Shown here: one piece after another, positions 5,137-18,913 of the stretch
Position numbering within the stretch: position 1 is the stretch's first letter
Layout: each line of letters starts with the position of its first letter
DNA from: Elusimicrobia bacterium GWC2_61_19
GTDB lineage: Bacteria; Elusimicrobiota; Elusimicrobia; Elusimicrobiales; UBA9959
Direction of reading: 5' to 3'
Length of the DNA: 51,403 nucleotides
NCBI GenBank assembly: GCA_001799795.1
Contig: MGUD01000029.1
Coordinates: 1-51,403 of the forward strand
Program-made: the position numbers and the translations under genes
Notes under the pieces: generated by a model
Databases searched by the model: none
What the model saw: only the letters and a program-made list of their open reading frames with translations
What the model was told of the DNA's origin: nothing

Positions 5137-5234
5137 TCCAAAATTGCCGTTTTGCAACACGACACTACGTTGTCGGGTTGGTCTGCTATGCTATTTGTAT
5201 CGCAAGGGGGGATTATGTCTAAAGAACTTATTCC
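5095..5234 (+). repeat. About 140-bp direct repeat, copy 1 (partner at 5889-6028)
   Basis: Contains the dockerin-like tail, the hairpin, the extended -10, the ribosome site and the first seven codons (MSKELIP) of the next gene. The second copy has the same order and closely similar sequence and leads into MSKEIVP of a different gene family. The repeat therefore crosses from non-coding into coding sequence. Confidence 0.75.
5156..5196 (+). promoter_or_regulatory. Hairpin plus extended -10 module, copy R1 (upstream of ORF6N gene)
   Basis: A CGACA/TGTCG hairpin is followed by GGTCTGCTATGCTATTT. TG-C-TATGCT (5184-5192) fits an extended -10 promoter. Transcription would begin near 5199, leaving a leader of about 16 bases that holds AAGGGGGG before ATG 5215. 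The same module recurs five more times in the window. Promoter function is inferred from the conserved bases. Confidence 0.6.
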
Positions 5235-5733
5235 GCATGAAATCCTGGAGTCTAAGATATTGTTGATCCGTGGGCACAAGGTTATGCTGGATCGCGACTT
5301 GGCACAGCTTTATGGTGTTGAAGCTAAGCGCCTGAATGAGCAGGTAAAACGAAATCGAAAAAGATTCCCTCCGGACTTCATGCTGCAATTGACTAAAGAG
5401 GAGGGGGCAAATGTTTTAAGGTCGCAAAATGCGACCTTAAAGAAGGGGCGTGGGGTGCATTTGAAATATCTCCCTTATGCTTTTACGGAGAACGGAGTGG
5501 CGATGCTTTCCAGTGTTCTTAACAGTGAACGCGCGATAGAGGTAAATATCCAGATAATGCGCACATTCACAAAACTCAGAGAACTGCTGGCCACCCATGC
5601 CGGCCTGCGACGGAAGCTGGCGGAGATGGAGAAGAAATACGACTACCAGTTTAAAGTGGTCTTCGACGCCATCAAAAGCCTGATCGCTGACCCGCCGCCG
5701 GTCAAAAAGATAGGGTTCACGGCCAGATCTTAA
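5215..5733 (+). CDS. ORF6N domain-containing protein
   Basis: 172 residues from ATG 5215, which follows AAGGGGGGATT. Residues 7-95 form an ORF6N domain: ILLIRGHKVMLDRDLAQLYG, NEQVKRNRKRFPPDFMLQLT, then LRSQNAT and LPYAFTENGVAMLSSVLNS. The C-terminal part (LRELLATHAGLRRKLAEMEK, FKVVFDAIKSL) is a typical coiled-coil tail. ORF6N domains are DNA-binding modules of phage antirepressor-like proteins found on many mobile elements; a regulatory role is inferred. Codons about 68-76 contain a perfect 27-base palindrome (5415-5441). The first seven codons are shared with the unrelated YhcG gene downstream because both sit on copies of one repeat. The protein appears complete and ends KKIGFTARS. Confidence 0.85.
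   Translation: MSKELIPHEILESKILLIRGHKVMLDRDLAQLYGVEAKRLNEQVKRNRKRFPPDFMLQLTKEEGANVLRSQNATLKKGRGVHLKYLPYAFTENGVAMLSSVLNSERAIEVNIQIMRTFTKLRELLATHAGLRRKLAEMEKKYDYQFKVVFDAIKSLIADPPPVKKIGFTARS
5415..5441 (+). repeat. Perfect 12-bp-arm palindrome inside the ORF6N gene
   Basis: TTTAAGGTCGCA, three bases, then TGCGACCTTAAA. Its 17-base core GGTCGCAAAATGCGACC belongs to a family with 5758-5774 and 7390-7406. In frame it encodes LRSQNATLK. Confidence 0.85.
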
Positions 5734-5757
5734 GCCCCGGCCCGGTAAGGCCGAACT

Positions 5758-5774
5758 GGTTGCAATTTGCAACC
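5758..5774 (+). repeat. 17-bp palindrome after the ORF6N gene
   Basis: GGTTGCAATTTGCAACC has 8-bp arms around one base and is non-coding, 25 bases after the ORF6N stop. It is the same family as the palindromes inside the ORF6N and Bro-N genes, but with T-A at the position where they have C-G and G-C. No T-tract follows, so it is a poor terminator. Confidence 0.7.
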
Positions 5775-5825
5775 GGTGTGCCATGGTGCGAAGGCCAGGG
5801 CATGGTGCTGGGGGTGCCGGCGGGG

Positions 5826-5846
5826 GTAGGGGACGCTGCTTCCTAT
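5826..5846 (+). repeat. GDAAS module, copy D1 (decayed)
   Basis: GTAGGGGACGCTGCTTCC followed by TAT. It matches the module that ends three other reading frames at 7041, 12,069 and 15,758. Here the stop has changed to TAT and no obvious reading frame enters it. Confidence 0.65.
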
Positions 5847-5885
5847 CTTCCTAATTCGATGGAACACATGTTTGTTGTTTAATTC

Positions 5886-5930
5886 CACGGGCAAATGACC
5901 GTGCTGGACCTGGACCACATCCTTAAATAA
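5886..5930 (+). pseudogene. Remnant dockerin-like tail, copy 2
   Basis: Reads HGQMTVLDLDHILK-stop, the same ending as the fragment at 5071-5136. It lies 19 bases before hairpin module R2 and has no upstream gene of its own. It is part of the ~140-bp direct repeat. Confidence 0.5.
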
Positions 5931-6028
5931 CTCAAAAATAGCGATTCCCAACCCGACACTACGCTGTCGGGGTCGTCTGCTATTCTATTTATGCGGCAAG
6001 GGGGGCTTATGTCTAAAGAAATTGTTCC
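5889..6028 (+). repeat. About 140-bp direct repeat, copy 2
   Basis: Partner of 5095-5234: dockerin-like tail, hairpin, extended -10, ribosome site and the first codons of the next gene (MSKEIVP). Most differences lie in the spacer between the tail and the hairpin. Confidence 0.75.
5950..5990 (+). promoter_or_regulatory. Hairpin plus extended -10 module, copy R2 (upstream of yhcG-like gene)
   Basis: AACCCGACA-N6-TGTCGGGGT hairpin, then TGC-TATTCT as extended -10, then CAAGGGGGG before ATG 6009. Same layout and spacing as R1. An in-frame ATG at 5991 overlaps the likely transcription start and is not used. Confidence 0.6.
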
Positions 6029-7061
6029 AGGTTACGGCACGTTGCTGGCGGATATTAAGCAGCGCGTGCGCGAAGCGCAGAACGCGGCGCTAAGGGCCGC
6101 CAATACGGAAGCGGTAAGCCTGTATTGGGATATAGGGCAGATGATAATTTCGCGGCAGGAGGGAGATACGTGGGGAAAAGCTGTGGTTATTAGGCTCTCT
6201 TTTGACCTGCAAAAAGAATTCCCGGGTGTTCGCGGGTTTTCTTCTCAGAATTTATGGAGGATGCGCCAGTTTTATCAGGAATACTCAAAAAACATAAAAC
6301 TCTCACCATTGGTGAGAGAAATAGCCTGGACACAGAATCTCATTATAATGATGGGGTGCAAAGATGATTCTGAAAGGGAGTTTTACCTGCGCGCCGCGCG
6401 CAAGTACGGATGGACAAAAGCCGTGCTGACGCTGAATATAGAGGCCGGGACTTACCAGAAGTATCTGGTCAACCAAACCAACTTCGACGCCACTGTCCCC
6501 GAAAAAGTTCGCAGCCAGGCCAAGTTGGCGATAAAGGACGAATACACCTTCGCTCTGATGGGGCTTGGCGAAGAGCACAGCGAAAAAGAATTGGAGAGAG
6601 CCCTGATCTCGAAGGTGAATAAGTTCCTGACCGAAATGGGCGGGGTTTTCGCTTTTGTCGGCAGTCAGTACCGGCTTGAGGTGGACGGCCAGGAATACTT
6701 CATAGACATCCTCCTCTACCATAGGCATCTGAAATGCCTTGTGGCGGTAGAGCTGAAGGTGGGCGAGTTCATGCCGGAATACATCGGCAAGATGCAGTTC
6801 TACCTGGCCGCGCTGGACTCGCTGGTTAAAACGCCAGAGGAAAACCCGTCCATCGGGATAGTTATCTGCAAGAGCAAGAAGCGGATGATAGTTGAATATT
6901 CGCTGCGGGAATCCAAAAAGCCTATAGGCGTTTCCACTTACAAAGTCTTTAAAACTGTGCCTGATAATTTAAAGGGAGAACTTCCTTCACCGGCCCAGGT
7001 CTCCCTGCTGCTTGAAGAGGGCTTTGGCGGCGGAGCGGGCGTAGGGGACGCTGCTTCCTAA
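6009..7061 (+). CDS. PDDEXK nuclease of the YhcG/DUF1016 family
   Basis: 350 residues from ATG 6009. The N-terminal DUF1016 domain shows LYWDIGQMI, GVRGFSSQNLWRMRQFY, and PLVREIAWTQNL. The C-terminal PD-(D/E)XK domain shows FIDILLYHRHLKCLVAVELK (D...E-x-K) and NPSIGIVICKSK. All usual motifs are present, so it is probably active. Family members occur on mobile elements and in restriction loci; the substrate is not settled. Codons 98-104 carry a 19-bp perfect palindrome (6300-6318). The last seven residues, GVGDAAS, are not native: they come from a repeat module beginning at 7041. The first codons are shared with the ORF6N gene through the duplicated promoter cassette. Confidence 0.9.
   Translation: MSKEIVPGYGTLLADIKQRVREAQNAALRAANTEAVSLYWDIGQMIISRQEGDTWGKAVVIRLSFDLQKEFPGVRGFSSQNLWRMRQFYQEYSKNIKLSPLVREIAWTQNLIIMMGCKDDSEREFYLRAARKYGWTKAVLTLNIEAGTYQKYLVNQTNFDATVPEKVRSQAKLAIKDEYTFALMGLGEEHSEKELERALISKVNKFLTEMGGVFAFVGSQYRLEVDGQEYFIDILLYHRHLKCLVAVELKVGEFMPEYIGKMQFYLAALDSLVKTPEENPSIGIVICKSKKRMIVEYSLRESKKPIGVSTYKVFKTVPDNLKGELPSPAQVSLLLEEGFGGGAGVGDAAS
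6300..6318 (+). repeat. 19-bp perfect palindrome inside the yhcG-like gene
   Basis: CTCTCACCATTGGTGAGAG, 9-bp arms around a single T. It encodes LSPLVRE, a stretch commonly conserved in this family. It differs in sequence from the GGTNGC palindromes of the neighbouring genes. Confidence 0.75.
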
Positions 7062-7174
7062 CTTCCTGATTCTGCAGGGCTCTTGTCTTTTAGTTCCATT
7101 CCCCGGCCAGAATCGCAAAAAAATCCCAAAAAGAACCCGACACTACGCTGTCGGGTTGGTGTGCTATACTATTT
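7041..7174 (+). repeat. 134-bp intergenic repeat, copy 1 (partner 12,069-12,202)
   Basis: Starts GTAGGGGACGCTGCTTCC, includes the stop of the yhcG-like gene and an A-rich stretch (CAAAAAAATCCCAAAAAG), and ends with hairpin module R3. The copy at 12,069 has the same length and about 10 mismatches by eye. Read on the minus strand, the hairpin is followed by CTTTTTGGGATTTTTTTG, a fair terminator against antisense transcription. Confidence 0.8.
7134..7174 (+). promoter_or_regulatory. Hairpin plus extended -10 module, copy R3 (upstream of Bro-N gene)
   Basis: AACCCGACA-N6-TGTCGGGTT, then TGC-TATACT, the copy closest to the consensus -10. The leader to ATG 7218 is longer here (43 bases), and the fixed AAGGGGGG ribosome site is replaced by AGCAGGGGTG. 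Confidence 0.6.
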
Positions 7175-7217
7175 TTATCTTGCGGAGATTTGTATTTCTA
7201 AGCAGGGGTGATAAATT

Positions 7218-8042
7218 ATGGAAACACCTAAAATTGCAGTATTCAAGGGCCAAAAGATCAGGAAAATAGTTCACAACAACGAGTGGTGGTTCGTCATTGT
7301 GGATGTGGTCGCGGCTTTGACCGGATCTGTGCGGCCAGAGGGGTACATTACGGATATGCGCCGGCGCGACCCGGAGCTTTCCAAAGGGTGGTGGCAAATT
7401 GCCACCCCCCTTTCGCTTCCTACTGCGGGGGGCGCACAAAAAATTAACTGCGCCAATATCGAAGGCGTTTTTCGCCTGATCCAATCAATCCCATCTCCTA
7501 AAGCCGAACCGTTCAAACGCTGGCTGGCTAAAGTCGGCTACGAGCGGGTACAGGAAATTGAAGATCCAGAATTGGCGACTAAACGGACCAGGATGCTTTA
7601 CAAACTCAAGGGCTATTCGGAAGATTGGATAGAGAAACGAATGCGCGGCATCGCTATCCGTGAGGAACTGACCGATGAATGGCAGAAGCGCGGCGCGAAG
7701 GAAGAAAAAGACTACGAAATCCTGACTGCGGAGATTTCCAAGGCTACGTTCGGCCTGATCCCCAGCCAGTACAAAAAGCTGAAAGGCCTAAAGCGGCAGA
7801 ATCTGCGTGACCACATGGACGACTTCGAGCTGATCTTTAATATGCTGGGCGAGCGCGCCACCACTGAAATTCACCGCACTGAGCACTCCAAAGGCGTGCC
7901 AAAATTAAAATCCGACGCCAAGGCGGGCGGCGACATTGCCGGTGGCGCCAGGAAGAAACTGGAAAAACGGCTCGGCCGGTCGATCGTGTCGAAGAAGAAT
8001 TTCCTGGCTAAGCCGGAAGATAAAAGATTGTCCGGGGAATAA
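7218..8042 (+). CDS. Bro-N (phage antirepressor-like) protein
   Basis: 274 residues. The N-terminal Bro-N domain (IVHNNEWWFVIVDVVAAL, INCANIEGVFRLIQSIPSP) runs to about residue 110. It is followed by the conserved linker of this subfamily (KAEPFKRWLAKVGYERVQEI, LYKLKGYSEDWIEKRMRGIA) and the C-terminal block ISKATFGLIPSQYKKLKGLK, NLRDHMDDFELIFNMLGERA. This arrangement is that of a widespread Bro-N/DinD-like family on prophages and accessory islands; DNA-binding regulation is the expected role. The gene looks complete. Codons about 59-63 hold the palindrome GGTGGCAAATTGCCACC, which encodes part of GWWQIATP, a point where relatives vary. Confidence 0.88.
   Translation: METPKIAVFKGQKIRKIVHNNEWWFVIVDVVAALTGSVRPEGYITDMRRRDPELSKGWWQIATPLSLPTAGGAQKINCANIEGVFRLIQSIPSPKAEPFKRWLAKVGYERVQEIEDPELATKRTRMLYKLKGYSEDWIEKRMRGIAIREELTDEWQKRGAKEEKDYEILTAEISKATFGLIPSQYKKLKGLKRQNLRDHMDDFELIFNMLGERATTEIHRTEHSKGVPKLKSDAKAGGDIAGGARKKLEKRLGRSIVSKKNFLAKPEDKRLSGE
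7390..7406 (+). repeat. 17-bp palindrome inside the Bro-N gene
   Basis: GGTGGCAAATTGCCACC has 8-bp arms and one central base. It shares the GGTNGCA...TGCNACC frame with palindromes at 5420-5436 and 5758-5774 and encodes WWQIAT; the ORF6N copy encodes RSQNAT in the same phase. Confidence 0.8.
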
Positions 8043-8046
8043 CGTT

Positions 8047-8071
8047 AGCCGGTTGCGAACTGTAACCGGCT
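8047..8071 (+). repeat. Hairpin after the Bro-N gene
   Basis: AGCCGGTT, 9 bases, AACCGGCT. The inner 17 bases (GGTTGCGAACTGTAACC) look like a decayed member of the GGTNGC palindrome family. It begins 4 bases after the Bro-N stop. There is no T-tract, so a terminator is uncertain. Confidence 0.5.
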
Positions 8072-8103
8072 GAAAGGACCGGGGGCAAAATGGTGAAAAA
8101 ATT

Positions 8104-8763
8104 ATGTGGCTTCTGATCGTTGCCATCATTATTCTGCTGGCGGTTAAATTCCTTGCCGGGAATATCCCGCAAGCCGCCGGCACCACTATGTACCGGCGTG
8201 AACGGTTTATGTCGGACGCGGAAACGCGGTTCTACCAGGCTCTGCACTCGGCTGTGGGGGCACAAGCCCGCATATTCGTTAAGCCGCGTTTGCGGGACCT
8301 TGTGTCGGCTATAGATCCTAACCGCTCCAGGTGGCAGACGCGCAGCAATCAGTTAAACATGAAGCATGTGGATTTTTTGCTTTGCGACCCGCTGACTCTT
8401 GCCCCGGCCTGCGTAATTGAGCTGGACGACAGTTCGCACGAGCGCAGCGACAGGCAGGCCCGCGATAATTTCGTGAACGAAGTCCTTAAGTCCGCCGGCC
8501 TCCCCATAGCGCATTTTGCGGTAAGGGCCAGCTATTCGGCGGAAGAAATTACCCGGGAGCTGGCGCAATATTTACCAGGTTTGGTAAGCTCTCGCGGGGC
8601 GAATCGCCCGTCAGTTCAGCCTTCCCAGCCTCAAGCGCCCGCCAAGCCCAAAAGCCGCGCCGTTCTGATCCCCACCGAGCCGCCTCCCGTTGCCGTGCCT
8701 AAAGATATGAAATACATGCCGCCCTCACTAAGGGCGGATTTCGAAAAGCAAAATGGTGCATAG
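8104..8763 (+). CDS. DUF2726 protein with N-terminal membrane anchor
   Basis: 219 residues. Residues 2-20 (WLLIVAIIILLAVKFLAG) form one membrane segment. Residues about 33-155 match DUF2726: RFMSDAETRFYQAL, IFVKPRLRDLV, HVDFLLCD, CVIELDDSSHER, RDNFVNEVLKSAGLPIAHF. The D...ExD pattern recalls the PD-(D/E)XK fold (D in HVDFLLCD, ELDD), which is how this family is usually classed; activity is not shown. A proline-rich linker and a short tail ending YMPPSLRADFEKQNG follow. The ATG at 8090 leads to an early stop, so 8104 is the start. It sits 61 bases after Bro-N and is probably co-transcribed with it. Confidence 0.8.
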   Translation: MWLLIVAIIILLAVKFLAGNIPQAAGTTMYRRERFMSDAETRFYQALHSAVGAQARIFVKPRLRDLVSAIDPNRSRWQTRSNQLNMKHVDFLLCDPLTLAPACVIELDDSSHERSDRQARDNFVNEVLKSAGLPIAHFAVRASYSAEEITRELAQYLPGLVSSRGANRPSVQPSQPQAPAKPKSRAVLIPTEPPPVAVPKDMKYMPPSLRADFEKQNGA

Positions 8764-8821
8764 GGAAATAAACCCGCATTAGGGTAAGTTATCAACGGAT
8801 AGTCTCTGGAGGACTCATATA

Positions 8822-9574: not shown

Positions 9575-9663
9575 CGGCCGATAGCGGGGGCGTTGCGGTT
9601 CCTACCGCTGCAATGGCCTCCGCTAAGCCCAAAAAGGGCCCCTTAATTCTAAAAAACACTAAA

Positions 9664-9706
9664 ACCCACCCCGACAGACCGTTGTCGGGGTGGTCTGCTA
9701 TGTTAT
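9664..9706 (+). promoter_or_regulatory. Hairpin module, divergent copy R4
   Basis: CCACCCCGACA-N6-TGTCGGGGTGG, then TCTGCTATGTTATT. The stem is longer than in other copies and the two arms have changed together, which supports selection on the hairpin rather than on the bases. It lies 100 bases before higB, which has its own consensus promoter further down. Confidence 0.55.
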
Positions 9707-9723
9707 TGATAAAAAATTGGGCC

Positions 9724-9752
9724 TTGACAGTGCGGGAAACGGCTGCTATAAT
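9724..9752 (+). promoter_or_regulatory. Consensus sigma-70 promoter of the higBA operon
   Basis: TTGACA (9724-9729), a 17-base spacer, TATAAT (9747-9752): a perfect match in both boxes with ideal spacing. The predicted start is near 9759, inside the operator palindrome. Confidence 0.9.
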
Positions 9753-9756
9753 ATGC

Positions 9757-9777
9757 TTATCACCTAAGGGGTGATAA
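9757..9777 (+). promoter_or_regulatory. Probable HigA operator
   Basis: TTATCACC-N5-GGTGATAA, a perfect inverted repeat with 8-bp arms placed just after the -10 box and over the expected transcription start. This is where an autorepressor would block initiation. HigA of the downstream operon is the obvious ligand. Confidence 0.75.
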
Positions 9778-9806
9778 GGTGAATATGATATAGGAAGGAA
9801 AATTTC

Positions 9807-10112
9807 GTGGAATTCCGTTTTAAAAGCGAGAAGCTCAAGCTACTATATACCAATGAGACAGGGGCTCATCGGTTTCCACCTGCGGTCGTTAGCGGTTTTT
9901 TTCGTGTGATGTCTGTTATAAAGTCCATCCCGGATGAGAGGGACTTATATTCTTTAAAAAGTTTGCATTATGAAAAGCTAAAAGGAACGCGAGGAAAGCT
10001 TGGAGAGCGTTCCTTACGGTTAAACGATCAGTGGCGACTGATCATCATGCTGGAAACCGACTCTAGAGGAAAGACCATTCTGGTCGTAGAGATCGGCGAC
10101 CATTATAAGTAA
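9807..10112 (+). CDS. higB: HigB/RelE-family toxin
   Basis: 101 residues from GTG 9807, with AGGAAGGA upstream. The sequence has the HigB pattern: a short N-terminus, LHYEKLKGTRGKLGERSLRL, NDQWRLIIML and a final VVEIGDHYK (usual form ..D.HY). This family consists of ribosome-dependent mRNA interferases of the RelE fold. The antitoxin gene follows after 15 bases. NDQWR is coded by a small palindrome (GATCAGT-N4-ACTGATC). The order toxin first, antitoxin second is typical of higBA and unlike most other toxin-antitoxin pairs. Confidence 0.9.
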   Translation: MEFRFKSEKLKLLYTNETGAHRFPPAVVSGFFRVMSVIKSIPDERDLYSLKSLHYEKLKGTRGKLGERSLRLNDQWRLIIMLETDSRGKTILVVEIGDHYK

Positions 10113-10127
10113 AACACGGAGGGAGAG

Positions 10128-11225
10128 ATGACTTTAGTACCTGCAAGGGTGGCAAGGCCTGGAGAGGTCATTGCTTTGGAGCTTGAAGCCAGGGGTTGGA
10201 CCCAGAAGGACTTGGCGGAGATAATGGGCCGGCCGCTTCAGGTTGTAAACGAGATCGTGAACGGCAATAAGCAGATCACCCCGGCGACTGCGCACGAACT
10301 GGCCCAGGTCTTTGGCACAACGCCCGAGGTCTGGATGAATCTTGAAACCAATTATCGACTGTTCGCCGCGCGCAAAGAGGCGGGCAGCGACGATATCAAG
10401 CGCAGAAGCAGGATCTACAGCCTTGCGCCAGTTAAAGAGCTGATAAAAAAGGGATGGATCCCTAATATACTGGCCCTGGATGAACTGGAGAAGAATGTCT
10501 GCGAGTTCCTTGGGCTCCGGGATATCAGCATGATGCCAAACTTTGGTGTGCCCGTAAGCAGAAGGCATTCGGAGGCGCGTGAGCCCGAGGGTATGGCGCA
10601 GATAGCTGTTCTGATGCGCGCCAGGCATCTGGCAAAAAGACACAAGGTGGCCAAGTTTAACGCTAGTAAGTTCAAGGCGGCTATCCCTGAGCTGCTTGAG
10701 TTCACAAAGGATGTTAAAAGCATAGAGAAACTACCCGCATTTTTTGCAAATTTAGGGGTGCACCTAATCATTGTCCCCGCATTGTCGCATTCTTATATGG
10801 ACGGGGCAGTGTTTTATGCGGAAGCTAATCCGGTGATCTTATTGACGCTCCGGTATGACAGGGTGGATAACTTCTGGTTTACCTTAACGCACGAGGTCGC
10901 TCACCTGTTTGCGAACCACCACGGGGTGCACATTGATAGTAATTTGGAGAAGCCTTCGGATGTTGCCGCGGAACAGACCGCGGATAAACTGGCCAGCGAA
11001 TGGCTTCTTGATTCAACGATGTATGATAAATATGTGACCAGCAGCCGACACTTCTATTCCAGAGAAAACATAGCCGCCTACGCAAACAGCGTAAACCGGC
11101 ACCCGGGCATTGTGCTTGGCAGACTGCATCATCAAAAAGAAGTCCCGTACTCGCATTTGCGCGGTATGTTAGAGAAAGTTAGCCCATACTTGCAAAAGTG
11201 TATTGATACCAGTTATGCGGTTTAA
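10128..11225 (+). CDS. higA: HigA antitoxin fused to an ImmA/IrrE metallopeptidase domain
   Basis: 365 residues. Residues 10-80 are the HigA-type XRE domain: PGEVIALELEARGWTQKDLA, VNEIVNGNKQITPATAHELA, FGTTPEVWMNLE. The C-terminal half is an ImmA/IrrE (M78-like) peptidase: FWFTLTHEVAHLFANHHGVH has the zinc motif H255-E-V-A-H259, with EQTADKLASEWLL downstream supplying the third ligand region. Plain HigA is about 100 residues, so this is the long HTH-peptidase form. It should repress the promoter at 9724 through the operator at 9757. The peptidase could control turnover of itself or of a partner; that is inference. Confidence 0.88.
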   Translation: MTLVPARVARPGEVIALELEARGWTQKDLAEIMGRPLQVVNEIVNGNKQITPATAHELAQVFGTTPEVWMNLETNYRLFAARKEAGSDDIKRRSRIYSLAPVKELIKKGWIPNILALDELEKNVCEFLGLRDISMMPNFGVPVSRRHSEAREPEGMAQIAVLMRARHLAKRHKVAKFNASKFKAAIPELLEFTKDVKSIEKLPAFFANLGVHLIIVPALSHSYMDGAVFYAEANPVILLTLRYDRVDNFWFTLTHEVAHLFANHHGVHIDSNLEKPSDVAAEQTADKLASEWLLDSTMYDKYVTSSRHFYSRENIAAYANSVNRHPGIVLGRLHHQKEVPYSHLRGMLEKVSPYLQKCIDTSYAV

Positions 11226-11286
11226 TGATCGCACTGTTTAATCGAGCCTTTTGATTAGTCTTGAAGTGTTGGTCTTGAAAACTATT

Positions 11287-11780: not shown

Positions 11781-12089
11781 CATTCACAGTTAGAGCGCGA
11801 ATACCACAAGTCCTTCAAAAAAATCACTATTGCCCCCAGGGTGCTGCTTGGCTTAACCGCCACGCCCGAGCGCATGGGCGGCGAAAGCATCCTCCCGTAT
11901 TTCGAGCACCGCATAGCGGCCGAGCTCAGGCTGCCCGAAGCCCTGGACGAAAAGCTGCTTTGCCCGTTCCAGTACTTCGGCGTGGCGGACCCGGTAAGCG
12001 TTGAAGACGACCGTTTCTGGCAGGCCGGCCGCTACAACACCGGCGCGCTGGAGGCGGCTTACGGGGGCGTAGGGGACGCTGCTTCCTAA
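11781..12089 (+). pseudogene. Fragment of a DEAD/DEAH-type helicase (DUF3427-linked, COG1061-like)
   Basis: The frame reads HSQLEREYHKSF, then VLLGLTATPERMGGE (helicase motif III region), FEHRIAAELRLPEALDEKLL and PFQYFGVAD. These match the middle of large superfamily 2 helicases that carry a DUF3427 C-terminus. Walker A is absent on the left and the second RecA domain on the right. The frame enters the 134-bp repeat at 12,069 and ends GVGDAAS-stop. About 100 residues out of perhaps 900 remain, so this is a dead fragment captured between repeats. Its codon use is GC-rich, unlike the genes just upstream. Confidence 0.75.
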
Positions 12090-12202
12090 CTTCCTGATTC
12101 GGCAGGGCTCTTGTCTTTTAGTCCCATTCTCGGGCCAAAACCTCAAAAAAATCCCAAAAAGAACCCGACACTACGCTGTCGGGTTCGTCTGCTATGCTAT
12201 TT
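12069..12202 (+). repeat. 134-bp intergenic repeat, copy 2
   Basis: Partner of 7041-7174: same length, with about 10 substitutions by eye. It supplies the stop codon of the helicase fragment at one end and the promoter module R5 of the next gene at the other. Confidence 0.8.
12162..12202 (+). promoter_or_regulatory. Hairpin plus extended -10 module, copy R5 (upstream of AlbA_2 gene)
   Basis: AACCCGACA-N6-TGTCGGGTT hairpin, TGC-TATGCT extended -10, then GGCAGGGGGGCTT before ATG 12,220. Spacing from -10 to ATG is nearly the same as for R1 and R2. Confidence 0.6.
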
Positions 12203-12219
12203 AGGCGGCAGGGGGGCTT

Positions 12220-13587
12220 ATGACTCTTAGGGAAAGCGAAACGCTGGAATTAAAAAGATCCACTTCCGAACTTAAGGAAGCCGTAATTTCTATCGGGGCT
12301 ATACTTAACAAGCACGGTAGGGGCCGTGTATACTTTGGCATCGCGGACGACGGCGGCGTAGTGGGGCAACATATTGGCCGGGCTACGCTAAAGGATATTT
12401 CACAGGCGATCGCCGCCCATATCGACCCCAGGATATATCCCGATATCGAGGCCAGGGATATAGACGGCAAAAGCTGTGTTTTTGTTGATTTCAGCGGGCA
12501 CGACGGGTTGTATTCCGCTTACGGGCGGTTTTATCTGCGTTCAGGCGACGAAGACCGGAAACTGTCGGCCAGGGAAATAGCGAGGCTGATAGAAAAGAAG
12601 AAAAACTACGCGTATTCCTGGGGGACGGAACTGTCCGGAAGCGCGCCTTCGGGCGCGGACGGCCAGACGCTGCGGTCTTTTGTTAAACGGGGCAGGGATG
12701 CCGGCCGGATAAGTTTCTCTTTCGACTCCGCCCGGAATGTTTTGGCAAAACTGCATCTGGTAAGAGACGGTCAATTGCTAAATGCCGGCTGCGCGCTCTT
12801 CGGCAAAGACAATGCGCTGGAGGTGCAGGCCGCTATCTTCGCCGGCAAAGATAAAATCACATTTCTGGATATTCAAAGTTTTCACGGCAACATTTTTCAG
12901 TTGGCCGCCAGGAGCGAGGCCTACATAAAAGAGCACATAAACTGGCGGGCGGATCTTACGGGCAGCCAGAGGGTAGAAATCCCTGAAGTCCCGGTCCGGG
13001 CGGTCAGGGAGGCCATAATTAATTCCCTGTGTCACAGGGACTTTGATAACCCAAAAAGCAACGAGGTCGCGATCTACAAGGACAGGATAGAAATTTTCAA
13101 TCCGGGCCTTTTCCCCGGCGACTATTCGCCCAAGGATTTTATTAAAGGGTCCGAACCCAGCATCCCGCGTAACCCTCTTATAGCGGAAACGCTGTTCCGC
13201 TCCGAGGATATAGAGAAATGGGGTTCAGGCCTGAAGCGCATAAGCGAGGAATGCAGTGCTGCGGGCGTTAGGGTTAGTTTCAAGAGAATTAAAAGCGGCT
13301 TTACTGTAGTCTTTTTCAGGCCCGGGTTTAAAAAATCCAAAGGAGATATTGAAGCAGTTGGGGGTGTAAATGGTGGAGTAAATGGTGGAGTAAGTGGGGG
13401 AGTAAATATCCTTGAGGCGGAAATAAAAAAGAATCCGGGACAAAGGCTTCCCGGGCTTCGGGTTGCGCTGAAGGTTCCCGGGAGAACGATAGAGAACTGG
13501 ATACGTAAACTTAAAACAGCAGGCCGAATAATATACCGTGGTAGCTATAAAACAGGCGGCTATTTCCCAACAGGAAAAAATAGTTGA
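12220..13587 (+). CDS. AlbA_2 / Schlafen-like DNA-binding regulator (COG2865 type)
   Basis: 455 residues. Residues 1-120 are the AlbA_2 domain (ESETLELKRSTSELKEAVIS, ILNKHGRGRVYFGIADDG). The middle carries the HATPase_c_4-type region typical of COG2865: VPVRAVREAIINSLCHRDF, EIFNPGLFPGDYSP, NPLIAETLFRSEDIEKWGSG. A GGVN tandem repeat links this to a C-terminal winged-helix unit (VPGRTIENWIRKLKTAGRI). Members are sometimes annotated as RecG-like, but there is no helicase here. They are presumed transcriptional regulators on mobile elements. The gene looks intact. It contains a 17-bp palindrome at the conserved CHRD motif. The stop is followed by a short YhcG remnant. Confidence 0.85.
   Translation: MTLRESETLELKRSTSELKEAVISIGAILNKHGRGRVYFGIADDGGVVGQHIGRATLKDISQAIAAHIDPRIYPDIEARDIDGKSCVFVDFSGHDGLYSAYGRFYLRSGDEDRKLSAREIARLIEKKKNYAYSWGTELSGSAPSGADGQTLRSFVKRGRDAGRISFSFDSARNVLAKLHLVRDGQLLNAGCALFGKDNALEVQAAIFAGKDKITFLDIQSFHGNIFQLAARSEAYIKEHINWRADLTGSQRVEIPEVPVRAVREAIINSLCHRDFDNPKSNEVAIYKDRIEIFNPGLFPGDYSPKDFIKGSEPSIPRNPLIAETLFRSEDIEKWGSGLKRISEECSAAGVRVSFKRIKSGFTVVFFRPGFKKSKGDIEAVGGVNGGVNGGVSGGVNILEAEIKKNPGQRLPGLRVALKVPGRTIENWIRKLKTAGRIIYRGSYKTGGYFPTGKNS
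13024..13040 (+). repeat. 17-bp palindrome inside the AlbA_2 gene
   Basis: TCCCTGTGTCACAGGGA, 8-bp arms around one T, encoding SLCHRD. That motif is conserved in the family, so protein constraint may explain it. It is noted because sister genes also carry one palindrome each. Confidence 0.65.
13360..13407 (+). repeat. Four 12-bp tandem units encoding GGVN
   Basis: Four in-frame repeats of roughly GGTGGAGTAAAT give GGVN-GGVN-GGVS-GGVN. They form a flexible linker before the C-terminal winged helix of the AlbA_2 protein and could vary in copy number by slippage. Confidence 0.85.
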
Positions 13588-13600
13588 GATGGTGTGTGGA

Positions 13601-13687: not shown

Positions 13688-13734
13688 AGGCGGGAAGCGG
13701 GGGCGGGAATAAGTGTAAAATAAGCTACAGGCCT

Positions 13735-15438
13735 ATGAAAAAACTATCGCTGATACGGGAAAATTTCCACAAGCTGCACCTGGGGCTGTATGCCCTGTTC
13801 ATGCTGATGGTGTACTTTGGCAGCACCACGGCCTTCTTCTTCGAAAAATACTCGCTTATCGATACTGGTCTTGTTAAAGCCCAATGGCAGCAGCTTACCG
13901 ACGCCCAGGCCAAAGGGAGCAACTACAAGACCCCGGAAGCCACCCAGGAGAAGATCTATAAGTCGCTCAACCTTACGAAACGCGTCGGCGAGAAAGGGGC
14001 GATGACTTATGAATCCAGGTCCGCCAACCTGGATTTCTCTTTTGTCTTCCTGCTGCTCTGGCTTTTGCCGCTCTACAAGCATTACTTTTTGAAGAAGCCG
14101 CAGGATATAGGGCGCATAGAGCGCCGCATAATCGATCTCCCGCTGGTCATTTTTGCGCTTGGCTGGGTCGTAGCCGGGCAACGCTACTTCGGGAACGTAA
14201 CGACCTATGCGGATTATTTCGGGGCCGTGCCGCTCAGGGTCAAGGCGATCTTCGGCGTGTCGGCCCTGCTGCTGGGCGCTTTTGTCAGCTACCTGAACCT
14301 GGAGCTGACCGGCCTCTATGTCCGCCAGCGCCTGGCCAAGCCCTTCTTCCTTGAGAACAACCCCTACGGCGTAAAATCCGGCTTAGCCATAAGTCTTACG
14401 CTGCGGTACGCGCTCATGATGTTCTCGCTGGCCATGGTGCCGCTGCTGCTGTGCCTTTATGTTCCCGTCTACGGCAATTTCGACATCATAGCCGTTCTGC
14501 TGCACGGCAGCGACCAGGCCAGGCAACTGGTTTTAACGGAACATATAGGGGCGCTGGTGCCCATTGCCATAATAGCTCTCCTGACGGGGATCATCCTGGT
14601 CTTCCAGGCGGTTTCGATCCTGCTTTACCGCGCTAACGTGCAGAAACCGGTGAGCGCGCTGGTAGGGCGTATGAAGGCCGTGGCGGCGGGGGACTTCAGC
14701 TGCAAGACCTCAGTGCTGTACGCCGACGAACTGGGCCAGCTGAAGGGGCATTTTAATATGATGCTGGACGGCCTGGTGGAGCGGGACCATATCAAGGACA
14801 CTTTCGGCCGCTATGTTTCGCTGGAGATCGCCGAGAAGATAATGAAGAGCGGTAAGGTAAACCTGGCCGGCGAGGAGATACAGGCCACGGTGCTGTTCTC
14901 CGACATCAGGGGGTTCACGCCCATGAGCGAGAATCTCCCGCCGGTGGAGCTTATCCGCTTTCTTAACGAGTATTTCACCAGCGTCACCAAACCCATTACC
15001 GAAAACCGCGGGGTCATAAATAAATTCATGGGCGACGCCGTCATGGCCATCTTCTCGCCGGTGTTCGGGGTGGAGGACCACCAGGCGGCGGCGCTTAAGG
15101 CGGCCCTGGGCATGCGGGAGGCCCTGCGGGAGTTCAACGCGCGGGGGCATCACCCGGAGGTTTTCTTTGGCGTGGGCCTGCACAGCGGCGGGCTGGTGGC
15201 CGGCAACGTGGGCACGGCCGAGCGCCTTGAGTACACCGTGCTGGGCGACACGGTAAACGTGGCCTCGCGCATAGAGAGCCAGACCAAGACGGCGGCCACG
15301 CAGATACTGGTGAGCGAGGCCGTGGTGCGGGGCGTGGACAAAGGCAGTTTCCCCGGTTACGTCTTTGTGGAGTGCGCCCCCGTGCTTATGAAGGGCAAGT
15401 CTCGCCCGATGGTGCTTTACAAAGTAGAGCCGGCATGA
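13735..15438 (+). CDS. Membrane-bound class III adenylate/guanylate cyclase with HAMP domain
   Basis: 567 residues from ATG 13,735 (MKKLSLIRENFHKLHLGLYA); the frame is open further upstream but lacks a good start. Membrane segments lie near residues 15-35, 102-118, 138-155, 175-195, 225-250 and 275-300, with a periplasmic loop after the first. HAMP follows (VQKPVSALVGRMKAVAAGDF). The catalytic domain has TVLFSDIRGFTPMSE (first metal Asp), NKFMGDAVMAIF (second metal Asp), GLHSGGLVAGNVG and YTVLGDTVNVASRIES. This is a complete class III cyclase; ATP versus GTP preference cannot be fixed by eye. The next gene overlaps by 4 bases (ATGA), so the two are co-translated. Confidence 0.92.
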   Translation: MKKLSLIRENFHKLHLGLYALFMLMVYFGSTTAFFFEKYSLIDTGLVKAQWQQLTDAQAKGSNYKTPEATQEKIYKSLNLTKRVGEKGAMTYESRSANLDFSFVFLLLWLLPLYKHYFLKKPQDIGRIERRIIDLPLVIFALGWVVAGQRYFGNVTTYADYFGAVPLRVKAIFGVSALLLGAFVSYLNLELTGLYVRQRLAKPFFLENNPYGVKSGLAISLTLRYALMMFSLAMVPLLLCLYVPVYGNFDIIAVLLHGSDQARQLVLTEHIGALVPIAIIALLTGIILVFQAVSILLYRANVQKPVSALVGRMKAVAAGDFSCKTSVLYADELGQLKGHFNMMLDGLVERDHIKDTFGRYVSLEIAEKIMKSGKVNLAGEEIQATVLFSDIRGFTPMSENLPPVELIRFLNEYFTSVTKPITENRGVINKFMGDAVMAIFSPVFGVEDHQAAALKAALGMREALREFNARGHHPEVFFGVGLHSGGLVAGNVGTAERLEYTVLGDTVNVASRIESQTKTAATQILVSEAVVRGVDKGSFPGYVFVECAPVLMKGKSRPMVLYKVEPA

Positions 15439-15779
15439 GGATCTGGGATATAGAGCCGCGCAGGCTGTGCCGCAACCACCTGCTGGGGGAGCACCGGGAG
15501 CTGCATTGCATCTGGGTGGTGCTGACGCAGGGGAAGAAGGGTTATTCCCGGCACCCGGAAACGCTGCGCTGGCGCGGCCGCCTGAAGGCGCTGTACCGGC
15601 GGCACACGGCGCTGGTGGCCGAAATGGCGCAAAGGGGCTACAACCATAAAAGCCCGCTGGATAAACGCCTGGCCACCGGCAGCGCCGTCCAGAATATTTT
15701 TATAGATCCCCCGCGGCGCCAGCTGCAACTGCTGGCCGGCAAAAAATGCGCCTGCCGTACAGGGGACGCTGCTTCCTAA
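15435..15779 (+). CDS. Pyrimidine dimer DNA glycosylase/endonuclease V-like (Pyr_excise family)
   Basis: 114 residues from ATG 15,435, overlapping the cyclase stop as ATGA. It shows MRIWDIEPRRLCRNHLLGEH, RELHCIWVVLTQGKKGYSRH and the later MAQRGYNHKSPLD. These match the family of T4 DenV, which starts base-excision repair of UV dimers; the Glu of GEHRELH is in the place of the catalytic acid. The tail is unusual: after KKCACR the frame runs into a repeat module and ends TGDAAS. The native C-terminus may thus have been replaced, although the conserved core is present. Coupling to an adenylate cyclase is unexpected and may be chance. Confidence 0.8.
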   Translation: MRIWDIEPRRLCRNHLLGEHRELHCIWVVLTQGKKGYSRHPETLRWRGRLKALYRRHTALVAEMAQRGYNHKSPLDKRLATGSAVQNIFIDPPRRQLQLLAGKKCACRTGDAAS

Positions 15780-15780
15780 A
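15758..15780 (+). repeat. GDAAS module, copy D4
   Basis: GTACAGGGGACGCTGCTTCC followed by TAA. It ends the endonuclease V-like reading frame with TGDAAS-stop. Here the module is alone: no hairpin-promoter part follows, and the next gene has its own promoter. Confidence 0.7.
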
Positions 15781-15803
15781 ATAAATCCAGAAAAGTACCG
15801 GCT

Positions 15804-15812
15804 TGGTATAAT
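15804..15812 (+). promoter_or_regulatory. Extended -10 promoter of the PBP4 gene
   Basis: TTGGTATAAT gives TG-N-TATAAT, a full extended -10. The ATG of the next gene is only 6 bases after the -10 box, so the expected transcript starts at or next to the ATG and would be leaderless. No Shine-Dalgarno is present (AGAAGA at most). Confidence 0.65.
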
Positions 15813-15818
15813 AGAAGA

Positions 15819-17222
15819 ATGAAACTCCTGCTTTTGCTTTGCCTTGCGGCCGGGCCGGTTGCGGCGCAGGACTTTGCCGCGCGGGCGGAGGCGCTGCTTA
15901 GCACCGGGGCCTTTGCCGGCGCGCAGGTAGCGGCTGTCTTTGTAGCGGCGGAAGACGGGGCCGTGGCTTATGCCCGCAATGCCGACCTGCCTTTGGTGCC
16001 GGCCTCTACGGCCAAGCTGGCCACCTCGGCCGCGGCGCTGGAACGCCTTACCGCGGAATACCGCTTTACCACCACTTTACTGGCGGCCAAGGAAGAACTT
16101 GGCCGGAAGAAACTCTCGGTGCTGGTCTGGCGCGGCAACGGGGACCCGTCGGTGTCCGGGCGCGACCGCGCGAGCATGACCGAGATCTACGAAGTGTGGG
16201 CGGATTCGCTGGCCGCGCTGGGGGTGGCTAAGGTCGGCCGCCTGGTGCTTGATAACCGCTATTTCGAAGGTCCCGAGGTGCCCCCGTCCTGGCCGCCCGG
16301 TGAGCTTGCCTACTGGTACCAGGCCGAGACCTCGCCCATTTCTTTTAACGATAATTGCGTGGACCTGGAGTTCGTGCCGGCGGCCAGGCCCGGGCGGCGC
16401 CCCAAAATAGCGCTTACGCCGGATATCGGTTACCTCAGGGTCAGGAACAAGGCCGTTACTGGGGCGCCGGACAGCCCCTTTACGCTGGATTTCCACCGCG
16501 CCCGCGGCACCAACACGGTCACCTTCACCGGCTCCATCCCGGCCGGGCGCAGCCGCAAAGACTGGGTAGCCGTGCACGCCCCTGCCCGTTTTGCGGCTGA
16601 GGCTTTAAAGAGCGTGCTGAAAAAGAAAGGTATAAAGGTGGGCGGCATTGTCGCCTGGGAGAAAGCCGGCTTAAAAGAGGAAGACCTGGCCCCGGCACTG
16701 GCCTGGCGGTCGCAGCCGCTGGCGCAGCTTATAAAAGCCGTAAACACCAATAGTCAGAATTTCTACGCCGAGCAGATCCTTAAGGCGCTGGGCAAAGAGG
16801 CGGCCGGGCGCGCTACCTTTACGGACGGCGCCGCCGAGGTTTCCGCTTACCTGGGCCGGATAGGGCTTAAGGACGGGCAATATTATCTTGTGGACGGCAG
16901 CGGCCTTTCCAAAGAGAACCGCTTTACCGCGGCCGGGCTGGTGAAGGTGCTGGCGCATATGCAGGGCACGCCGCTGTTCCCGGTGTATTACGAATCCCTG
17001 GCCACGGCCAAGAACCGCATGAAGGGCGACCCCCTGGCCGCGGGGATGCGCTTAAAGCGCGGCACCGTGGGCAATGCGCGTAACCTGGCGGGGTACCTGC
17101 ACTCCGCAAGCGGCAAACTTTACGCCTTCGCCGTGCTGGTGAACGCCCCGGCGCTGGACCGCGCCGCCGTCGACGACGGCATCGACGCCCTCTGTCTGGC
17201 CGCGGCCCGCCAATTACCGTAG
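15819..17222 (+). CDS. dacB: D-alanyl-D-alanine carboxypeptidase/endopeptidase (PBP4, S13 family)
   Basis: 467 residues with a signal peptide at residues 1-16 (KLLLLLCLAAGPVAAQ). The three penicillin-binding motifs are present in order: S63-T-A-K66 (PASTAKLATSAAAL), S312-Q-N314 (VNTNSQNFYAEQIL), and K413-R-G-T (LKRGTVGNARNLAGYL). VDGSGLSKENR is the usual lead to the last block. Length and layout fit periplasmic S13 enzymes that trim or cleave peptidoglycan cross-links; KRG in place of KTG is a tolerated variant in the family. It seems to start a core-like region after the island and is followed 46 bases later by mutT. Confidence 0.93.
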   Translation: MKLLLLLCLAAGPVAAQDFAARAEALLSTGAFAGAQVAAVFVAAEDGAVAYARNADLPLVPASTAKLATSAAALERLTAEYRFTTTLLAAKEELGRKKLSVLVWRGNGDPSVSGRDRASMTEIYEVWADSLAALGVAKVGRLVLDNRYFEGPEVPPSWPPGELAYWYQAETSPISFNDNCVDLEFVPAARPGRRPKIALTPDIGYLRVRNKAVTGAPDSPFTLDFHRARGTNTVTFTGSIPAGRSRKDWVAVHAPARFAAEALKSVLKKKGIKVGGIVAWEKAGLKEEDLAPALAWRSQPLAQLIKAVNTNSQNFYAEQILKALGKEAAGRATFTDGAAEVSAYLGRIGLKDGQYYLVDGSGLSKENRFTAAGLVKVLAHMQGTPLFPVYYESLATAKNRMKGDPLAAGMRLKRGTVGNARNLAGYLHSASGKLYAFAVLVNAPALDRAAVDDGIDALCLAAARQLP

Positions 17223-17251
17223 GAAGGCCGCTAATGACCGGATGGCTATTT

Positions 17252-17259
17252 GTTAGAAT
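17252..17259 (+). promoter_or_regulatory. Possible extended -10 of the mutT-like gene
   Basis: TGTTAGAAT reads as TG-N-(T)AGAAT, 9 bases before ATG 17,269. If used, the leader would be only 2-4 bases. An AGGAA lies between, so translation from a longer transcript starting further up is equally possible. Confidence 0.35.
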
Positions 17260-17268
17260 AGGAATTCT

Positions 17269-17862
17269 ATGAAGCAGGTAACCGCCGCGGTTATTGAAAA
17301 AGACGGGAAGATACTGATAGCCCAGCGCAAGGCGGGCGATACCCTTGCGGGCAAGTGGGAGTTCCCGGGCGGCAAGATAGAACCGGGCGAGACGCCCGAG
17401 GCCTGCCTGCGTAGAGAGCTGATGGAAGAGTTCGGCGTGGACACGAAGATAGGCGAATTTATCTGCGCGAGCAAGTTCGAATACAAGCATATGCCGATAG
17501 AGCTGCTGGCGTACAGGGCGGAACATCTCTCCGGCGAGTTCAAGCTTAACGACCACGACCGCATTGAGTGGGTAGCCCCGGCGGACCTGGTTAAATACGA
17601 TTTTTGCAGCGCCGATATCCCCGTTGTGGAGCTTCTGCTGGCTGCGCCGTTCAGCACGGGGGAGAAACTTATTATGCCGCCCGGCATGAAGGAAGCGTTG
17701 GCGGCCCGTGAGAAGCAGCGGGCGCTGGCCGATAATGATCCCCTTTGCCCCGCTTGCAAAACCCCGATGGTGCTGCGCATAGCCCAAAGCGGCCCTGACG
17801 CCGGCGCCAAGTTCTGGGGTTGCCGCAACTATCCCCAGTGCCGCGCCACCATTAAAGCTTAG
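17269..17862 (+). CDS. MutT-type Nudix hydrolase fused to a topoisomerase-type zinc ribbon
   Basis: 197 residues. Residues 1-125 are a MutT/8-oxo-dGTPase-like Nudix domain: ITAAVIEKDG-type start (VTAAVIEKDGKILIAQRK), then the Nudix box GGKIEPGETPEACLRRELMEEFG with all acidic ligands. Residues about 160-197 are a separate four-cysteine ribbon, CPACKTPMVLRIAQSG and FWGCRNYPQCRATI, the zf-C4 module normally at the C-terminus of topoisomerase I. MutT alone is about 130 residues. The fusion could target the sanitising enzyme to DNA; that is inference. All four cysteines and the glutamates are intact. Confidence 0.88.
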   Translation: MKQVTAAVIEKDGKILIAQRKAGDTLAGKWEFPGGKIEPGETPEACLRRELMEEFGVDTKIGEFICASKFEYKHMPIELLAYRAEHLSGEFKLNDHDRIEWVAPADLVKYDFCSADIPVVELLLAAPFSTGEKLIMPPGMKEALAAREKQRALADNDPLCPACKTPMVLRIAQSGPDAGAKFWGCRNYPQCRATIKA

Positions 17863-17872
17863 GTAAAAATCC

Positions 17873-18787
17873 TTAATTCACCCAGTCTTTCTGCACGCGG
17901 GCGGTAACGGCGGCCGCGGCCTCTCCGGTTTCCACGCTGGCCAGGCGGATGTTGAGTTCCAGCACGCGGTCTGGCAGTTCCACCATGCCGCCTATCACCA
18001 GCAGGTCGGCGCCCAGCATGCGGCCCACTTTTTTTGCAGACTCGGGGTCGATAGCCCCGGCGTTCTGCAGCTTCAGCTCGCCCAGGACTTTTTCTATCTG
18101 CTTGCGCTCCACTACTTTAAGCGTCTTGTGGTTTATCAGTTCGGTGGTAAAACGCTCGGCCACAATATTGCCGTCCGTGGAGGCGCGGCCGTCGGCATAG
18201 GAGAAGCCGGCCACGGCGATGGTTTTGCCTTCGCCCTGGTAGGACTTCAGTATGGAGGCCACTATGGGGCCGTACTCGCCGGCGTTCCTGTCGCTGCCGG
18301 AAGCGATGCCGAGGCGGTTGTTGATGGCGGTCTGGATCATGGCGACCACGGCGGGGTTGCCGCGGCGCTGGGCCATCTCAAGCGGGGTAAGCTCTTCGGG
18401 ACGGCTGAAGGGGCTGAAATTCACCGTTTGCGGCAAGCCGCAGTAATAAGCCGTGCCGGGCTCCGGGTTGGCGCCCTTTTGCAGCAGCAGCTGCACTATG
18501 GCGGAGTTGCCGTAGGACGCGGCAAAATGCAGCGGGGTGCATCTGAAGTAGGCCTGCTCGTTAATGTCCGCGCCATTTTCTATGAGTATTCTTGCCGCCT
18601 CCGCCTGCCCGTTGGTTACGGCGTCATGCAGCGGCGTTTTATGGTCGCTTCTTGTTTTCAGGCTGGCCCCCTTGGCCAGCAGCGTGCGTATGGCCGGGAT
18701 ATCGCCCGTGCGCGACGCCTTATGCAGCGGGCTCGCGCAGCCGCAAACAAAAACCATTAAAGTCAGAAGTCCCAGAAAATTGCGCAT
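17873..18787 (-). CDS. Lipoprotein with ankyrin repeats and a FlgO/CsgG-like domain
   Basis: 304 residues. The N-terminus (MRNFLGLLTLMVFVCGCASP) is a lipoprotein signal with lipobox CGC. Residues 18-155 hold three to four ankyrin repeats (SPLHKASRTGDIPAIRTLLA, TPLHDAVTNGQAEAARILIE, TPLHFAASYGNSAIVQLLLQ). Residues 185-300 (KTIAVAGFSYADGRASTDGN, AERFTTELINHKTLKVVERK, IGGMVELPDRVLELNIRLAS) match the FlgO/CsgG-type domain of outer-membrane assembly lipoproteins. The combination suggests an envelope scaffold. The native start is followed by a short divergent region shared with the SSB gene. Confidence 0.8.
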   Translation of the reverse strand: MRNFLGLLTLMVFVCGCASPLHKASRTGDIPAIRTLLAKGASLKTRSDHKTPLHDAVTNGQAEAARILIENGADINEQAYFRCTPLHFAASYGNSAIVQLLLQKGANPEPGTAYYCGLPQTVNFSPFSRPEELTPLEMAQRRGNPAVVAMIQTAINNRLGIASGSDRNAGEYGPIVASILKSYQGEGKTIAVAGFSYADGRASTDGNIVAERFTTELINHKTLKVVERKQIEKVLGELKLQNAGAIDPESAKKVGRMLGADLLVIGGMVELPDRVLELNIRLASVETGEAAAAVTARVQKDWVN

Positions 18788-18826
18788 TTAACCCTCCGTA
18801 AGCGTTGCCTACGATATTTTACATGA

Positions 18827-18864
18827 TTCGGAGGTTAAACCAAGTTGGAGGTTCAACCTCCGAA
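18827..18864 (+). repeat. REP-like hairpin with GGAGGTTCAACCTCC core
   Basis: TTCGGAGGTT and AACCTCCGAA arms enclose a further palindrome (GGAGGTTCAACCTCC, 18,847-18,861); CCTTTTTT follows. It lies between divergent genes, so a terminator has no upstream plus-strand gene to serve. The same core recurs at 27,387-27,423. Confidence 0.6.
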
Positions 18865-18872
18865 CCTTTTTT

Positions 18873-18913
18873 AACCCGACACTACGCTGTCGGGTTGGTC
18901 TGCTATGCTATTT
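18873..18913 (+). promoter_or_regulatory. Hairpin plus extended -10 module, copy R6 (upstream of ssb)
   Basis: AACCCGACA-N6-TGTCGGGTT, then TGC-TATGCTATTT, 40 bases before ATG 18,953. The leader contains GTAAGGGGGAAGT in place of the fixed ribosome site. This is the only copy outside the island. Confidence 0.55.

Follow-up and report, generated by a model that had tools for sequence, protein, structure and literature searches.

The promoters most similar to those described here are the targets of two WYL-type DNA-damage regulators, DriD of Caulobacter crescentus and the mycobacterial PafBC. The available part of a preprint (PMC12340889) gives ATACGAC-N7-GTCGTAT as the sequence bound by DriD and describes its sites as overlapping the -35 position at one distance from the -10, with a G at -14 and with the DNA-binding domains flanking the -35. 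The binding probe shown there, ATACGACAGTAACTGTCGTAT, contains CGACA-GTAAC-TGTCG, i.e. CGACA-N5-TGTCG. For the mycobacterial system, the accessible portions of two papers give a PafBC-type motif, tTGTCRgtg-8 nt-TannnT, in which TGTCR is separated from TAnnnT by 11 nt (PMC5656591), and a contact between the PafB helix-turn-helix (HTH) and the -26 motif (PMC11804915). A 51,403 nt contig of Elusimicrobia bacterium GWC2_61_19 (accession: MGUD01000029.1), which in its entirety we refer to as the window, was found to carry six plus-strand copies of CGACA-N6-TGTCG, each with a -10 hexamer after 11 nt. Each copy is probably one promoter of a WYL-type DNA-damage regulon, in which the palindrome would be the putative site of an activator replacing the -35 element, and the likely binder is a protein that we have designated A. 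In the portions of the literature that were accessible, searches combining Elusimicrobi with LexA, SOS response or WYL turned up no damage regulon of this phylum; an Elusimicrobium genome is cited in the accessible part of PMC7739468.

An exact search of the window for CCCGACA-N{3,12}-TGTCGGG gave five plus-strand matches, compared to a mean of 0.00 in 100 shuffles, and the sixth copy (R1, at 5156) differed by a single base in its left arm (CACGACA). Repeat finding recovered all six copies in register (family D1). A previous sequence-only reading of the window had listed six plus-strand copies ahead of named genes, and the exact search, repeat finding and Pfam confirmed their coordinates, hexamers and strand as well as the gene names (Table 1). 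The hexamer varied while TG was constantly one base upstream in all six copies, and in R4 both arms were altered together, both as that reading had it. R1 and R2 were not the perfect AACCCGACA/TGTCGGGTT palindromes it had taken them for, and the distance to the ATG that it held to be fixed in R1, R2 and R5 was the same in the first two only (39 nt from TGTCG), being 38 nt in R5.

The geometry of the element was analysed with CCGACA-N6-TGTCGG palindromes from two (G019 and G022) of six genomes searched, which were collected with no -10 required. TANNNT was present exactly 11 nt after TGTCG, and on one side only, in 30 of these 31 palindromes; the sole exception sits within long open frames. The earlier view held in so far as it took the element for a promoter of defined orientation, located ahead of genes, in which both the -10 and the extended -10 are conserved. 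Distances (d) were counted from TGTCG, such that d = 24 corresponds to the transcription start (+1) if the hexamer occupies -12 to -7. TG was found at d = 9-10 in 24 of the 30 sites, G at d = 10 in 25 and a purine at d = 24 in 28. In a larger set of 301 sites, which fell into 195 clusters by their flanks, the purine at d = 24 was present in 182 of the 195, compared to 35% and 55% at the neighbouring positions. The larger set was partly biased, as many of its loci were fetched with patterns requiring TGCTA, so that conservation of the extended -10 is inflated in it; the purine and the start codons at d = 24 were no part of the selection. Among the site-bearing genomes listed with the TGCTA-containing pattern, sites were fetched for G013, G014, G015, G022 and G024, plus G019 from a separate search, while G009, G008 and G031 were listed and left out. 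Start codons of open frames of at least 40 codons also peaked at d = 24, with 27 of 203 clusters having one there against a maximum of 13 for the remaining offsets between 18 and 44, although some of these 27 frames are probably not genes (L302, L304, L310 and L373). The frames starting at d = 24 included comM, recQ, a repair rSAM gene and a conserved 62-aa protein, and their mRNAs are predicted to be leaderless. If d = 24 is the +1, one half-site spans -39 to -35 and the other -28 to -24, such that they flank the -35 position. The fixed 11 nt between half-site and -10 (30 of 31) is what is expected of a WYL-type regulon.

The pattern CGACA-N6-TGTCG-N11-TANNNT had 857 matches in 59 genomes of the family, whereas a reversed-pattern control, which does not preserve the palindrome and is therefore a check on the complete pattern rather than on its spacing, had three. 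At least one match was found in 54 of the 59 genomes, with 5-54 per genome in the genus of the source genome (hereafter the genus) and 0-35 in the 27 others. A TGCTA-containing version of the pattern had 0-3 matches per genome in the sister family, where 6 of 24 genomes had any. The source genome itself (G000; 1.36 Mb, 66% complete) had 14 forward and no reverse matches to the TGCTA-containing pattern, and 15 forward and one reverse to the fixed-spacing pattern; other genomes show both orientations. The forward strand thus carries 15 of its 16 fixed-spacing sites, even though contig orientation should be arbitrary. At least 116 stretches of a named genome collection contained the element, and among the titles listed one was a Lentisphaerae genome and the remainder were Elusimicrobia, Elusimicrobiota, Elusimicrobiales, Elusimicrobium or plain 'bacterium'.

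The first contexts seen outside the window were recA, comM and REP transposases. Seven genus genomes contained 115 sites, of which 110 were annotated and five were dropped for a low -10 score or the lack of an ORF; as the 25 commonest families per half were listed, the family counts are lower bounds. The repair genes comprised at least seven SSB, five RecA, four ComM/YifB, three RecQ, three rSAM_link_UDG, two RadC and two UvrD-type helicases. The targets, recA included, are damage genes, as those of a WYL-type damage regulon would be. The mobile and accessory families comprised at least 15 REP-associated tyrosine transposases, nine ORF6N, four BrnT, four Fic, four DUF1016/YhcG, two DUF2779 and two C5-methyltransferases, with the REP-associated transposases being the commonest genes under the element among the families listed. 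Nineteen genes from other genera (21 annotated proteins minus L340 and L341, which were assigned to the genus; L329, a 52-aa frame, was excluded) included two recA, two rSAM_link_UDG, radC, a RecB-like helicase and RmuC, as well as cas3, ORF6N, RhuM, DUF2779 and three REP transposases. The cas3 gene (L331:3-1388) follows the element in G035.

The sequence-only reading had proposed a mobile expression cassette, in which a hairpin insulator, promoter and Shine-Dalgarno sequence would spread as a unit and capture accessory genes. Two pairs of window copies (D2 and D3) are indeed alike beyond the element and into the upstream flank, over 138 nt at 93% and over 142 nt at 83%, which indicates that the promoter was duplicated together with its flank beside accessory genes. 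However, the element precedes core genes in several genera (recA in the genus and two other genera, ssb, comM, recQ and radC), its distance to the start codon is variable and its flanks differ, as the number of flank clusters shows. The core repair genes argue for a regulon, and on their account the cassette was rejected as most improbable, with the two flank duplications being the part of it that stood.

Nor does the palindrome have to be an insulating hairpin, as its half-sites, and how far they lie from the -10, agree with the targets of WYL-type damage activators. A role of the stem as a single-stranded DNA (ssDNA) or RNA structure, whether terminator, insulator or ssDNA promoter, beyond that of a protein site is very unlikely. 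The arms do covary outside the core, where positions 1-4 each exceeded all 2000 shuffles of the 195 clusters, flank clustering alone accounting for relatedness in these shuffles. Within the genus, position 3 still covaried (0.58 v 0.37, reached by none of 2000 shuffles), but position 2 showed no excess (303 of 2000 shuffles reached it), and that at positions 1 and 4 was smaller (three and seven of 2000). One control slid by one column also exceeded its shuffles, and the outer and inner loop positions paired no more than shuffles. The weaker covariation within the genus suggests that part of the arm signal is lineage change of both half-sites. The rest may reflect template-switch repair, a process that acts on quasi-palindromes, or use of the stem. 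Three of the six window copies (R3, R4 and R5) were flagged as terminator-like on the minus strand, whereas the sole flag for the plus strand was an alternative pairing in R4. An intrinsic terminator was rejected as the main role, with a side role via the minus strand of these three copies being possible. An integron attC-like site was rejected by eye.

The genus provided 30 recA loci, 20 beside lexA and 10 from genomes with no full-length LexA match, 29 of which show the recA start. An intact palindrome was present within 130 nt upstream of recA in 27 of the 28 readable loci; L148 had one altered base, L152 is masked at this position and L154 begins inside recA. The recA promoter thus has the element as a stable component. 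In 22 of the 29 loci (e.g. L146, L147 and L061), including loci without LexA, a further sequence, GTTAACATAA, occurs in the 300 nt ahead of recA.

The position of the element ahead of recA bears on the alternative that we first favoured, in which the palindrome would be an SOS box, with LexA repressing by covering the -35 region and RecA-driven LexA cleavage releasing it. The regulon content is SOS-like, the LexA domains PF01726 and PF00717 are present (alignment A1), and in 20 of 20 loci lexA and recA are transcribed away from each other across a gap with exactly one palindrome, an adjacency that also counts against a WYL-type regulon. However, A1-type LexA was not found in 11 of the 32 genus genomes, several of them 94-99% complete, which retained 5-54 sites each; these are draft metagenome-assembled genomes and A1 was built from genus sequences only, such that a diverged LexA could escape detection. 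One of the 11 (G027) matched TIGR00498 across the DNA-binding part with 30.8 bits, and a search of nine of the 11 for S24 domains gave weak matches in eight, of which two exceeded the Pfam cut-off, at 25.2 bits in G027 (frame of 807 aa) and at 23.3 bits in G031 (frame of 125 aa). Besides the 11, G008 had a LexA match only as a fragment at a contig end. In the eight LexA-less genomes in which the region upstream of recA could be read, the palindrome was kept in seven and had a single changed base in one. The palindrome in the lexA-recA gap is closer to recA and directed towards it, while lexA has a separate conserved element of its own, TGTCAAGTATTAAGGA, 55-56 nt ahead of the ATG in 20 of 20 promoters. 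This element was also found 65 nt before a LexA relative from another family (L087), the genome of which has one palindrome match. Additionally, in other genera, five genomes that are near-complete (G080, G091, G115, G120 and G145) had 21-35 sites and no A1 match, G034 had LexA-like matches and no sites, and a fixed 11 nt spacing is unnecessary for a repressor. LexA and the palindrome do not travel together in the genomes examined, and because genomes without that LexA keep their sites the LexA operator was dropped as an unlikely explanation. The LexA encoded at L071:1504-2157 has Cys-Gly at the likely cleavage place (SCGPA), which we take to be UmuD-like. Its close relative at L087, in another family, lies beside a frame that by eye resembles a DNA methylase; horizontal transfer of LexA between families is possible.

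A WYL-type regulon requires a WYL regulator, and WYL proteins were searched for in 29 genomes, 24 of them site-bearing and 17 of the genus. At least two were present in 15 of the 17 genus genomes. Protein A, an HTH-WYL-WCX protein of ~315 aa, was read in 13 of the 17, and the other WYL protein of these genomes, B, is a Pif1-helicase-WYL protein of ~526 aa. HTH_11, WYL and WCX, the domains of a regulator of this type, were all above cut-off in each of the three genus A proteins scanned. Orthologs of A with 37-49% identity were found outside the genus in G091, G080, G035, G033 and G036, with weaker ones in G120 and G145, such that a clear ortholog was read in 18 of the 24 site-bearing genomes (13 of 17 in the genus and five in other genera). 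In G034 (98% complete, no sites) the WYL search gave only B and no A. A profile search of solved structures with A matched DriD (1.6e-13) and PafBC (4.4e-13), and Foldseek with a model of A, the ranking of which was taken as support only, placed DriD and PafBC first, ahead of BrxR and CapW. The three promoters of the DriD cryo-EM structures, counted here from the letters in the available part of PMC12340889, have TG(T/G)CG, 11 nt, a hexamer and a G at d = 10.

Several observations weigh against protein A as the activator and against a WYL-type regulon. The WYL search found no such protein in the source genome (66% complete) or in G004 (450 contigs) and gave no match in G032 (81% complete, nine sites), and the WYL matches of the size of A in G021 and G031 lie outside the sequences read. 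In genus g13, where sites are abundant, the nearest relatives of A found are only ~24-36% identical. In G042, which belongs to another family, a protein resembling A (30% identity) is present and sites are absent. No site precedes A in the nine A loci inspected. The profile match between A and DriD spans the WYL and WCX part and the DriD HTH does not score, while the Foldseek ranking rests on weak geometry, as the model of A is poor (pLDDT 61, pTM 0.32). Among the DriD promoters, as far as the available text gives them, bapE fits at the downstream half-site only, and the hexamers, which were placed in this analysis, are weak. The repair-gene counts are raw counts rather than enrichments over random genes. 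Another regulator, e.g. a second, family-wide HTH protein, might bind the palindrome with the WYL protein as a bystander, given that motif geometry and co-occurrence are the sole grounds for binding by A and that three site-bearing assemblies had no WYL protein found. This is distinctly improbable, as the half-sites and 11 nt spacing coincide with the targets of DriD and PafBC.

If the elements are WYL-type promoters, CGACA-N6-TGTCG (approximately -39 to -24, with arms often extending to -43 and -20) would be the site of a dimeric activator in place of a -35 element, and the housekeeping sigma factor would read the -10, mostly with its extended TG, at a distance of exactly 11 nt downstream of the second half-site. 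The activator would most likely be the conserved protein A, switched on, by analogy with DriD and PafBC, by ssDNA arising from damage. The ORF6N, YhcG, Bro-N, HigB, AlbA_2 and REP-transposase genes would have joined the regulon by carrying the promoter. That an ssDNA-sensing WYL activator rather than LexA is the master switch of the damage response in the whole Elusimicrobiota family, with mobile and defence genes plugged into it and firing on ssDNA, is a broader claim towards which we lean only slightly. Were it true, REP transposases, toxin-antitoxin, YhcG/ORF6N/Bro-N and even cas3 genes would respond to ssDNA from damage, transformation or phage entry, a direct link between an ssDNA alarm and REP transposases, toxins and phage-type ORF6N/Bro-N proteins. 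WYL activators would then govern the damage response genome-wide in one more phylum, and their simple palindromic code could be scanned for in uncultured genomes.

Table 1. Copies of the element in the window and the genes that follow them. The +1 positions are predictions placed from the purine position d = 24 in clustered sites.
Feature	Position	Strand	Details
Element R1	5156..5199	+	palindrome 5156-5179 (one mismatch), core begins at 5160, -10 TATGCT 5187-5192, predicted +1 A 5199
ORF6N-domain protein under R1	5215..5733	+	Pfam PF10543, 2.2e-32
Element R2	5950..5993	+	palindrome 5950-5973, core begins at 5954, -10 TATTCT 5981-5986, predicted +1 G 5993
YhcG/DUF1016 PDDEXK nuclease under R2	6009..7061	+	PF06250 7.7e-61, PF17761 3.3e-42
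Element R3	7134..7177	+	palindrome 7134-7157, core begins at 7138, -10 TATACT 7165-7170, predicted +1 A 7177
Bro-N domain protein under R3	7218..8042	+	PF02498 2.9e-12
Element R4	9666..9711	+	palindrome 9666-9693 with 11-bp arms, core begins at 9672, -10 TATGTT 9699-9704, predicted +1 A 9711
HigB-like toxin downstream of R4	9807..10112	+	PF05015 7.8e-6, 26.7 bits, just below the 27-bit cut-off
HTH and M78-peptidase protein after the HigB-like gene	10128-11225		PF01381, PF06114
Element R5	12162..12205	+	palindrome 12162-12185, core begins at 12166, -10 TATGCT 12193-12198, predicted +1 G 12205
SLFN AlbA_2/RecG-C-terminal-like protein under R5	12220..13587	+	PF04326 2.1e-15, PF13749 3.2e-17
Element R6	18873..18916	+	palindrome 18873-18896, core begins at 18877, -10 TATGCT 18904-18909, predicted +1 G 18916
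Single-strand DNA-binding protein (SSB) under R6	18953..19423	+	PF00436 2.6e-20

Between R4 and the HigB-like gene, the window contains a perfect TTGACA-N17-TATAAT promoter (9724-9752), and this gene may have it as a second promoter. A REP-like repeat with GGGGACGCTGCTTCCTA is located upstream of three of the element copies, at 5822-5895, 7037-7110 and 12065-12138. The conserved protein of ~62 aa (MTNKN...SIISARAG...LRVYTLG), predicted to be leaderless under the element, was encoded at L303, L305, L306, L311, L341 and L362, with a 90-aa protein downstream of it and an HTH-WYL operon adjoining; it is a candidate for a damage-induced effector such as a division inhibitor. Near the Pif1-WYL gene, the site was directed into a convergent open frame in seven of eight site-bearing loci (L302, L308, L310, L312, L316, L318 and L321, with L304 being the eighth), where it may drive an antisense transcript, and in G120 a site is directly ahead of the Pif1-WYL gene (L468).

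Compared to the LexA/SOS regulon, the Elusimicrobia set has the same kinds of target (recA, ssb, repair genes and toxins) and a LexA gene beside recA in 20 genomes, but the site is retained in genomes in which no such LexA was found, the conserved element upstream of lexA is a different one and the spacing from site to -10 is fixed. As far as the accessible text of PMC12340889 describes DriD, its system shares with that of Elusimicrobia the CGACA/TGTCG half-sites, a site over the -35 at a fixed distance to the -10, the G at -14, damage-response targets and a regulator of the HTH, WYL and WCX type. The two differ in the spacer, which is 6 nt in Elusimicrobia and 5 in DriD, a point that also counts against a DriD-like activator, and in the consensus, which is strong and uniform in Elusimicrobia, with 5-54 sites per genus genome compared to few named DriD promoters. 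The Elusimicrobia set also includes recA, ssb, recQ and many mobile and defence genes, and binding is here an inference. The mycobacterial PafBC/RecA-NDp (P1) system, in the accessible portions of PMC5656591, PMC6789036 and PMC11804915, has the same TGTCR pentamer 11 nt from the -10, and its control of recA does not depend on LexA, as is proposed for Elusimicrobia. PafBC binds as a heterodimer to a site that is not palindromic, whereas the Elusimicrobia site is a palindrome, which suggests a homodimeric regulator.

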